From: Mitsuaria chitosanitabida ATCC BAA-476 = NBRC 102408
Lineage (GTDB): Bacteria > Pseudomonadota > Gammaproteobacteria > Burkholderiales > Burkholderiaceae_C
Reading direction: 5' to 3'
Assembly: GCF_001598255.1 (NCBI RefSeq)
Contig: NZ_BCYP01000027.1
Span: 62,001-126,000 of the forward strand
Length of the DNA stretch: 64,000 bases
Notes under the pieces: generated by a model
Databases searched by the model: none
Told to the model about the DNA's origin: nothing
What the model saw: only the letters and a program-made list of their open reading frames with translations
Shown: piece by piece, positions 17,096 through 20,104 of the stretch
Numbering within the stretch: the stretch's first letter is position 1
Layout of the letters: every line of letters begins with the position of its first letter
Made by a program: the position numbers and the translations under genes

Positions 17096-19444
17096 ATGAC
17101 ACAAGAGACCTTTGATTTCGAGACGCCCAACGGACCGGGCGGCCCGGGCGGGCAGGCCCCGTCGGGCGACGCGCTGCAGCTGGCGCAGTACGCGCAACAG
17201 GCCTATCTGGAGTACGCGTTGTCGGTGGTGAAGGGCCGGGCGCTCCCGTCCTACAGCGACGGCCAGAAGCCGGTGCAGCGCCGCATCCTGTTCACGATGG
17301 AACGGCTGGGGCTGGGCTTCACCGGCGCCACCGGCGCGAAGGCGGTCAAGAGCGCGCGCGTGGTCGGCGAAGTGCTGGGCAAATACCACCCGCACGGCGA
17401 CCAGGCCGCCTACGACGCCATGGTCCGCATGGCGCAGGAGTTCAGCCAGCGCTATCCGCTGGTCGACGGCCAGGGCAACTTCGGCAGCCGCGACGGCGAC
17501 AACGCCGCCGCGATGCGATACACGGAAGCGCGGCTCTCGATCTACTCGCGTCTGCTGCTGGACGAGCTCGACATGGGCACGGTCGACTTCCAGCCCAACT
17601 ACGACGGCTCGTACGACGAACCCAAGGAACTGCCGGCGCGGCTCCCGTTCGTGCTGCTGAACGGCGCCTCCGGCATCGCGGTGGGCATGGCGACGGAAGT
17701 CCCCAGCCACAACCTGCGCGAGGTCGCGGAGGCGGCGGTGCTGCTGCTCAAGCGCCCGGACGCCAGCGACGACGAGCTGTTCGGCGCGATCAAGGGCCCG
17801 GACTATCCGGGCGGCGCGCAGCTGATCAGCTCCCCCGAGGACATCCGCGCGGCCTACAACAGCGGCCGCGGCAGCCTGAAGCTGCGCGCGCGCTGGAAGA
17901 TCGAGGACCTGGCCCGCGGCCAGTGGCAACTGGTCGTGACCGAGCTTCCTCAAGGCGTCAGCACCGCCAAGGTGCTGGAGGAGATCGAGGAGATCACCAA
18001 CCCCAAGGTCAAGACCGGCAAGAAGACGGTGACCGCGGAGCAGCTGCAGCTCAAGGCGTCGGTGCTGGCCGTGCTGGACAAGGCGCGCGACGAGTCCAAC
18101 AAGGACGCGCCGGTGCGCCTGGTGCTGGAGCCCAAGAGCCGCTCGGTGGAGCAGCAGGACCTGATCAACACGCTGCTGGCGCACACCAGCCTGGAGACCT
18201 CGGCCTCGCTGAACCTGACCATGGTCGGCGACGACGGCCGGCCGGTGCAGAAGTCGCTGCGCAAGATCCTGACCGAGTGGAACGGCTTCCGTCTGAACAC
18301 GGTCACGCGCCGCACGCAGCATCGTCTGGACAAGGTCCGCGACCGCATCCACATCCTGGAAGGCCGTCACCAGATCCTGCTGCACATCGACGAGGTCATC
18401 GCGCTGATCCGCAACTCGGATGAGCCCAAGCCCGCGCTGATCGAGCGCTTCAAGCTGAGCGACCGTCAGGCCGAGGACATCCTGGAGATCCGGCTGCGCC
18501 AACTGGCGCGGCTGGAGTTCATCAAGATCGAGCAGGAGCTGAAGAACCTGCGCGAGGAGGCGGACAAGCTCGAGGAAATCCTCTCCAACCCGTCGGTGCT
18601 GCGTCGCACCGTGATCAAGGAGATCGAGGCCGACGCCAAGCAGTACGGCGACGAGCGCCGCACGCTGATCCAGGAGGACAAGCGCGCGGTGGCCGAGGTC
18701 CGCATCGTCGACGAGCCGGTGACGGTGGTCGTCAGCCTGAAGGGCTGGGTGCGGGCGCTCAAGGGTCACGAGGTCGATCCGGGCGCGCTGGGCTTCAAGT
18801 CGGGCGACGCGCTGTACGGCGTGTTCCCGTGCCGCAGCGTCGATCCGCTGGTGGTGCTGGGCAGCAATGGCCGGGCCTACTCGGTGCCGGTGTCGGCGCT
18901 GCCGGGCGGCCGCGGCGACGGCCAGCCCATCACCACGCTGATCGAGCTGGAGTCGGGCACGCAGATCGCGCATTACTTCGCCGGCGCGGCGACGCAGAAA
19001 CTGCTGCTCGCGGGTACCGGCGGCTTCGGCCTGGTGGCCGAGGTCGGCGATCTGGTAGGCCGTCAGAAGGCGGGCAAGAGCTTCCTGTCGCTGGAAGGCG
19101 AGGAGCGTCCGCTGCCGCCGTCGGTCGTGCCGGCGGCCGCCGCCGGCGTGCAGGTGGGCTGTCTGTCCATGAACGGCCGGCTGCTCACGTTTGCCATCGA
19201 CGAGCTCAAGCACCAGCCCAAGGGCGGTCGCGGCCTGACGCTGATCGACCTGGAGGCCAAGGATGCGCTGGTCAGCGTCGCGGCCTTCACGACGCAGCTG
19301 CTGGTGGCGGGTCTTGCTCGCGGGCAGAAGCCCAAGGAGGAGCCGCTCAAGGGCGTGGCGCTGGCGTCCTACGCCGGCAAGCGCGCCAAGAAGGGCAAGG
19401 CCTGCGACCTGATGACCAAGCCGATGCGCATCACGGCCGGGTGA
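17096..19444 (+). CDS. parC: DNA topoisomerase IV subunit A
   Basis: DNA-cleaving subunit of topoisomerase IV, 782 residues. Winged-helix/breakage domain with the quinolone-pocket region [18 protein letters not shown] (GyrA Ser83 equivalent here is Asp-Gln context) and the active-site Tyr in [11 protein letters not shown]. The coiled-coil tower and a C-terminal beta-propeller region with a degenerate GyrA-box ([10 protein letters not shown]) follow, matching ParC rather than GyrA. Paired with parE upstream. A good terminator follows. Confidence 0.95.
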
Positions 19445-19478
19445 TCGCGGCGGGTTGAGCACGGCGGTTTGATCGCGG

Positions 19479-19502
19479 CGGGCGGAGCGTCCGCCCGTTC
19501 TT
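19479..19502 (+). terminator. Terminator downstream of parC
   Basis: An 8-bp stem CGGGCGGA / TCCGCCCG (19479-19486 / 19490-19497) with a 3-nt loop is followed by TTCTTA. The U-tract is short, so strength is uncertain. Confidence 0.6.
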
Positions 19503-19569
19503 ACCGCTGTGACCCTCTGCAACAACTCTCGCCGTTTTCCGGCAAGACGTGGTGAAGGGTCGACATGCA

Positions 19570-19608
19570 AACTCCGTCACGCATGAGTTCGTCATGCGGA
19601 ACGGAGTT
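19570..19608 (+). promoter_or_regulatory. Hairpin that occludes the PEP-CTERM gene's ribosome-binding site
   Basis: The outer stem AACTCCGT / ACGGAGTT (19570-19577 / 19601-19608) is separated by small internal bulges (CA / GA) from an inner stem CGCATGA / TCATGCG (19580-19586 / 19592-19598) with a 5-nt loop. The Shine-Dalgarno GGAG (19603-19606) is within the outer stem, and the ATG is at 19613, 4 nt past the hairpin. Such a structure would block ribosome loading when folded. It could also be a protein-binding palindrome in DNA. Confidence 0.65.
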
Positions 19609-19612
19609 CTTT

Positions 19613-20104
19613 ATGCAGTTCAAGACCCTCGCCCTGGGGGCGACCCTGGCGCTGATCGGCGCCGCCGCCTCGGCGGAAACCTTCAGCTTCGAGCCGCAGG
19701 TGCTGACCCCGTCCACGGGCAGCTTCTCCGACGTCGTGCTGGGCAGCTTCACGTTGACGCAGGCCTCGAACGTCACCGGCTCGGTGCTGGCGGCGACCAC
19801 CCTCGGCTTCGAGGGCAGCAGCACGCTGCCGTTGCAGTCGGTGTCCTTCTCGTTCGTCGGCCTGAACGGCCACACCGACCTGGATCCGAGCGCGACCGGT
19901 TTCAGCTTCGCCAATCTGGCGGCCGGCACGTATCAGCTGGTGGCCAGCGGCTCGCTCAGCGGCGCGGGCATTCCCAACTTCGCGGTGCTGCGCACGACGG
20001 CCACGGCGGTCGCCGCCTCCGCGGTCCCGGAGCCGGCGAGCTACGCGCTGATGCTCGCGGGGATCGCGGGCCTGGGCTTCGTGGCCCGGCGACGCAAGGC
20101 CTGA
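19613..20104 (+). CDS. Exported PEP-CTERM sorting-signal protein
   Basis: A 163-residue secreted protein. The signal peptide FKTLALGATLALIGAAASA is followed by a beta-rich body beginning FSFEP and TGSFSDVVLGSFTLTQAS, which resembles the FxDxF class of PEP-CTERM proteins. The C-terminus has the full tripartite sorting signal: VPEPASYAL, a hydrophobic stretch (MLAGIAGLGFVA) and basic RRRKA. In PEP-CTERM bacteria such tails are processed by EpsH-type exosortase and the proteins go to the surface or the extracellular matrix. No exosortase is visible in this window. An in-frame ATG at 19565 would add 16 unlikely residues; the ATG at 19613 has GGAG 6 nt before. Confidence 0.9.
   Translation: MQFKTLALGATLALIGAAASAETFSFEPQVLTPSTGSFSDVVLGSFTLTQASNVTGSVLAATTLGFEGSSTLPLQSVSFSFVGLNGHTDLDPSATGFSFANLAAGTYQLVASGSLSGAGIPNFAVLRTTATAVAASAVPEPASYALMLAGIAGLGFVARRRKA

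Follow-up and report, generated by a model that had tools for sequence, protein, structure and literature searches.

In the window, i.e. the whole stretch of 64,000 nucleotides from Mitsuaria chitosanitabida analysed here, the gene order parC, PEP-CTERM gene, pyrD is found. The middle gene (19613–20104, forward strand) encodes an FxDxF-family PEP-CTERM protein of 163 amino acids with a start that by eye resembles a signal peptide and with the PEP-CTERM at its C-terminus. It matches both NF038126 (63.6 bits, cut-off 50) and TIGR02595 (26.1 bits, cut-off 16), so the gene downstream of the hairpin described below is a PEP-CTERM gene, as the original prediction had it. After parC a terminator-like hairpin (GGGCGGA GCG TCCGCCC, then GTTCTT) can be read from the sequence at 19480–19502 of the forward strand; it is weak at best, since a consensus scan of 19400–19700 called no terminator.

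Orthologues of this gene (E ≤ 1e-20) are present in nine of the 16 genomes of the genus including this one, i.e. in eight of the 15 others. The nine leaders compared are those of the window and of the loci L003 to L010, among them Mitsuaria sp. PDC51 (L004), Mitsuaria sp. GD03876 (L005), a Rubrivivax MAG (L006), Roseateles noduli (L007), R. chitinivorans (L008) and a Burkholderiaceae MAG (L009). In six of them (window, L004, L007–L010) parC lies at most about 0.4 kb upstream of the orthologue; in L006 it is found about 1.6 kb upstream (through L057), and in the sequenced flanks covered for L003 and L005 it was not seen. On the downstream side pyrD is the next gene in the window and in L005, whereas in L004, L007 and L008 it is reached about 2.6 kb later.

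The hairpin at the ribosome-binding site

The hairpin spans 19570–19608 on the forward strand and is supported by the sequence and by predicted folds. Its outer stem of 8 bp pairs AACTCCGT (19570–19577) with ACGGAGTT (19601–19608) and its inner stem of 7 bp pairs CGCATGA (19580–19586) with TCATGCG (19592–19598); a 2x2 internal loop (CA/GA) separates the two, and GTTCG forms the terminal loop. The Shine-Dalgarno (SD) sequence GGAG at 19603–19606 is located entirely within the 3' arm, and the start codon ATG (19613–19615) follows 4 nt beyond the stem and 6 nt beyond GGAG. Thus, the two stems with a paired GGAG and the distance of the ATG, both claimed originally, were confirmed by sequence and folding. 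Minimum free energies around 19565–19625, the check that had been proposed, are far below those of shuffled sequences: −35.8 kcal/mol for 19560–19640 (z −5.0, equalled by none of 200 shuffles) and −25.4 for positions −50 to +3 (z −5.6, none of 300). In this predicted fold the SD sits within a stable stem, which would be expected of an SD-sequestering leader hairpin.

Folds of equal stability are found in 599 of 31,978 segments of 44 nt in the window (plus strand, step 2); the raw energy of the hairpin is unexceptional because the window is GC-rich and stable folds of this length are common. Opening of the ribosome site costs 16.7 kcal/mol, which ranks first among 50 roughly called starts of the window (mean 6.5, sd 3.4), a set that includes the PEP-CTERM gene itself. 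This means that the hairpin is unusual by its position at a start site and not by its raw energy. A repeat element was rejected, as the exact outer arms, spaced by 15–30 nt, occur a single time in the genome. An intrinsic terminator composed of the hairpin and TTCTTT was likewise rejected; the scan found none and by eye the T-run is missing in the relatives.

An RNA thermometer, another of the suggested identities, is not supported. As in the ROSE and fourU thermometers a stem occludes the SD, but the stem found here is far too stable: the modelled probability of an unpaired GGAG is 0.000 at 10–42 °C and does not exceed 0.015 at 70 °C, so that energy rules out heat sensing by a site that stays paired up to this temperature. 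Searching Rfam with 19300–19900 and with five of the eight orthologous loci revealed no thermometer family, no riboswitch and nothing else at threshold; the matches below gathering scores (mir-718, WT1-AS_4, ncS54) are unrelated.

Orthologous leaders and the conserved upstream block

In the alignment of the nine leaders a block of about 75 bp, TGTGACGCACYGCAACA...TGCAAACTNNNTCACG, precedes a variable stretch and the SD. It is better conserved than the hairpin and its end is the hairpin's 5' arm. The part TGTGACGCACYGCAACA (19508–19524, forward strand; TGTGACCCTCTGCAACA in the window) is an imperfect palindrome of the type TGT..ACA and a possible operator. GTGAC and other columns of it are invariant in all nine orthologous leaders. 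Allowing at most one mismatch, seven of the eight matches of this pattern in the 16 genus genomes lie at orthologues; the copies in the window and in L005 have three mismatches each. Within the conserved region follows a small hairpin, TCTCGCCG TTTTC CGGCAAGA (19527–19547, forward strand), whose arms prefer their own partners (duplex permutation, p 0.014) and whose two-sided changes come chiefly from L009 and L010; with so few sequences there is modest support for a real helix. The last part, TGCAAACTCCGTCACG (19566–19581, forward strand, from the alignment), contains the 5' arm AACTCCGT with a CTCC complementary to the SD, and its TGCA(A/C)ACT is found in nine of nine leaders.

Among the loci searched, a profile of the block matches the nine orthologous sites only, with all others at E ≥ 1.6; matches with E > 1 (L061, L091, L059, L060, L130, L104) were taken as chance, L061 being apparently coding. 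With a covariance model run over 60 sources, including besides the window 23 of the 24 PEP-CTERM loci of this genome, solely the window fell below E 1 and a match at L022 (E > 1) was considered chance. Under strict filters model R1 matched three of 299 family genomes: two matches are this locus and the third (G193, E 0.014) was rejected since it sits in an open coding frame. In these 299 genomes R1 thus did not reveal the element ahead of further genes or in a second lineage, as would be expected of a riboswitch, and the leaders of distant homologues in other genera differ from this block. A genome-wide GTGACGCACCGCAACA regulon was discarded too, with 128 matches at up to two mismatches in the 16 genomes versus 122 for the reversed control; a match with one mismatch in G002 is taken as chance and lies upstream of a gene that, judging by eye from its start, we take to be thymidine kinase-like.

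Pairing between the 5' arm and the SD region was evaluated by comparing ten 5'-arm bases with their own SD region and with 49 start regions of other genes. The expected pairs (in brackets the controls reaching them, of 49) are 8.0 (1) in the window, 8.6 (1) in L003, 4.2 (14) in L004, 10.0 (0) in L005, 8.0 (1) in L006, 8.6 (1) in L007, 7.2 (2) in L008, 1.7 (29) in L009 and 0.3 (34) in L010. Pairing with the own SD region therefore stands out in six of nine leaders (window, L003, L005–L008), which by eye span perhaps four lineages; L004 lies within the range of the controls and in L009 and L010 the hairpin is not formed. Folds of whole leaders give the 5' arm 5.7–10 expected pairs in seven of nine and none in L009 and L010. 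Opening costs are 16.7 in the window, 7.9–14.0 in L003–L008, 5.3 in L009 and 7.1 in L010, and ordinary (1.1–8.2) in 16 distant homologues. The z-scores of the leaders range from −3.3 (L005) and −3.1 (L008) via −1.8 (L003), −1.4 (L007) and −1.0 (both L004 and L006) to +0.7 (L009) and +1.2 (L010).

Duplexes of own arms are more stable than cross-species ones (−8.6 versus −7.2 kcal/mol, permutation p 0.014), and with five representatives six of 120 assignments are equal or better; these permutation tests ignore relatedness, and one and the same 5' arm is shared by four of the nine leaders. Fixed-column covariation in the nine leaders yielded no two-sided change, with 158 of 500 shuffles pairing as well; this null result is due in part to a drifting pairing register, the strong stem of L005 being shifted by 2 nt. 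That stem is at least as strong as the one in the window (−27.5 versus −24.9) and built from different bases. The 5' arm bases are common to the window, L003, L006 and L007, and the 3' arm is specific to this species. A GTGAC/GTCAC outer stem was dismissed, as by eye it shows no covariation and is broken in L009 and L010. On conservation in orthologous leaders, which had been named as decisive for the hairpin, the outcome is divided: a weaker form is present in six of nine, but L004 does not exceed its controls and L009 and L010 lack the hairpin.

Further upstream, helices in the region 19512–19571 are 85.9% paired versus 78.6% in shuffles (0 of 500), slides giving 20–47%, with a structure that was derived from the same alignment used to score it. 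Six of their ten two-sided cells come from the related pair L009 and L010. For the long helix the duplex permutation gives p 0.007; in whole-leader ensembles it forms in two of nine, and folding the block by itself (z −0.6 to −3.0) raises this number. Inverted half-sites for a DNA-binding protein may account for the helix signal equally well.

Other PEP-CTERM genes and sigma-54 sites

This genome has 24 PEP-CTERM loci (the start of L042 being doubtful), and among them this start is the costliest to open, with 16.7 compared to 9.7 for the next and a median of 4.7. Over these loci the hairpin is no general feature of PEP-CTERM genes. The leader of the PEP-CTERM gene at L053 (G000:C33) is also very stable (−27.9 kcal/mol for −45 to +3, cost 9.7).

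Control of PEP-CTERM genes is described as transcriptional, via sigma-54 and PrsR, in PMC1569441. As in the PrsK/PrsR system outlined there, we deal with a proteobacterial PEP-CTERM gene in a genome that encodes PrsR (TIGR02915, 697.3 bits, cut-off 502.6). Unlike eight of the 22 other PEP-CTERM genes scanned, the gene at 19613 showed no sigma-54 site: one of the TGGCAC-N5-TTGC type was not found within 170 nt of it (best score 1.4, with a 99% shuffle level of 8.8). The sites of those eight genes (L033, L038, L039, L044, L046, L048, L051, L054) score 12.1–17.5 and lie 32–76 nt before the starts; the other 14 reach at most 8.6. So the genome seems to hold a PrsR-type PEP-CTERM set and a second one outside it. 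Scores of the orthologues range from 1.3 to 10.2, and L005 (10.2) is the sole one above the 99% shuffle level. Its sigma-54-like site TGGTACACATCTCGCA is found about 92 nt before the start and overlaps the conserved block. L004 scores 7.9, about the 95% shuffle level, at a position that differs from the L005 site.

A palindrome like ACCCCCTNNANNNGGGGGT was observed about 85–115 nt before the start in L113, L115, L120 and L122 by pattern, and by eye in L127 and, more loosely, in L119 and L121; in L122 and L127 it stands about 22 nt ahead of a TATAAC box. Possibly it is a shared operator of distant PEP-CTERM homologues that is absent here, but it may be chance because just four of the 15 pattern matches over all loci searched are at these distant-homologue leaders.

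Possible roles of the hairpin

SD-sequestering leader hairpins are a general class of cis translational attenuators. Like them, the hairpin at 19570–19608 is a stable stem directly ahead of the start codon with the SD in its 3' arm. Unlike them, it concerns a single gene, no ligand, protein or small RNA is known to act on it, and its 5' arm is part of a conserved promoter-like block. This kind of element is known; in the literature searched (titles and abstract openings) the present instance is uncharacterised and leader hairpins of PEP-CTERM genes are not dealt with.

Our main reading, at a probability of about 0.48, is an SD-occluding leader hairpin that would keep translation low or gated. 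The PEP-CTERM gene, a solitary one, would have the hairpin in its mRNA leader, with a transcript that presumably begins upstream of 19570, and the buried SD would lower or gate translation. The 5' arm would be the end of an older conserved leader or promoter block. Its predicted pairing with the SD region is already weak to moderate in most relatives that carry the gene; the species analysed here would have acquired a near-perfect complement on the 3' side, so that its ribosome site is all but closed. Ribosomes would then have to load co-transcriptionally, or a helper would have to open the stem, candidates being a protein, a small RNA or a ribosome that comes in from the ATG at 19565. Of the translational occlusion first proposed, the burial of the SD in the predicted fold holds and a weaker form of it is seen in six of nine leaders, but fixed-column covariation is negative. 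If true, this translational gate on a PEP-CTERM gene lacking a sigma-54 site would represent a second layer of control; otherwise the locus illustrates the growth of a stem at a ribosome site in a single lineage.

Since the conserved promoter-like block includes the 5' arm, we kept the somewhat unlikely alternative of a DNA dyad. Here 19508–19581 would be an activator-dependent promoter with a transcription start inside the dyad, e.g. after CAAACT at 19568–19573, so that the mRNA would lack the 5' arm and its SD would be free; whether the element is an RNA hairpin or a promoter dyad depends on the position of the transcription start. The block is compact, has the size of a promoter and exceeds the hairpin in conservation, inverted half-sites can be read in it, and a local promoter is suggested by the terminator-like hairpin that follows parC. 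Of all alignment columns upstream of the start codon, those of CAAACT/CACACT score best on average as a −10-like element, but the best such scores fall in the range of shuffled window sequence, and the consensus scan (19400–19700) found no sigma-70 promoter. A dyad also leaves the match between 5' arm and SD region in six of nine leaders unexplained. This same pairing above swapped controls, together with the strong stem of L005 made of other bases, argues against an incidental hairpin, which we regard as unlikely. In that case the 5' arm would be kept for another reason and the right side would have become a near-complement via template switching (quasi-palindrome), with little or no regulatory role; the sharing of the 5' arm with L003, L006 and L007 at a 3' arm peculiar to this species would fit, as would the widely varying strength among relatives, the missing hairpin in L009 and L010 and the frequency of stable 44-nt folds in the GC-rich window.

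It is quite improbable that the block 19508–19581 and the following stem form one structured, signal-opened leader RNA specific for Roseateles/Mitsuaria. Its sensing part would consist of the helices together with the conserved stretches AACA and AAACT; the stem closing the SD would evolve fast, open on a signal and release a surface-protein gene without sigma-54 site. Riboswitches likewise have a conserved block upstream and, after it, a stem that occludes the SD and varies more; unlike in them, the long upstream helix is unstable in most whole leaders, and the genomes searched show the element at a single locus in a single genus. Even less probable is translation from the ATG at 19565 with the hairpin as coding sequence opened by ribosomes, which would be compatible with SD occlusion. 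This ATG is in frame with the gene (ORF of 179 amino acids) and follows AAGGG (19555–19559) at a distance of 5 nt, and ATG or GTG is found there in nine of nine leaders, the GTG of L006 being in frame with no stop. Against it, the frame hits a stop in L003, L004, L007, L008 and L009, in L005 and L010 it does not match that of the gene, by eye the SD-like stretch is missing in the relatives, and all nine orthologous proteins align starting from the later ATG (19613 in the window). A conserved leader peptide from this RTG was rejected as well, as the frame is not kept. In L004 and L008 a short frame from the conserved GTG ends in a TGA overlapping the ATG of the gene (ATGA), a possible coupling arrangement not common to the other leaders.
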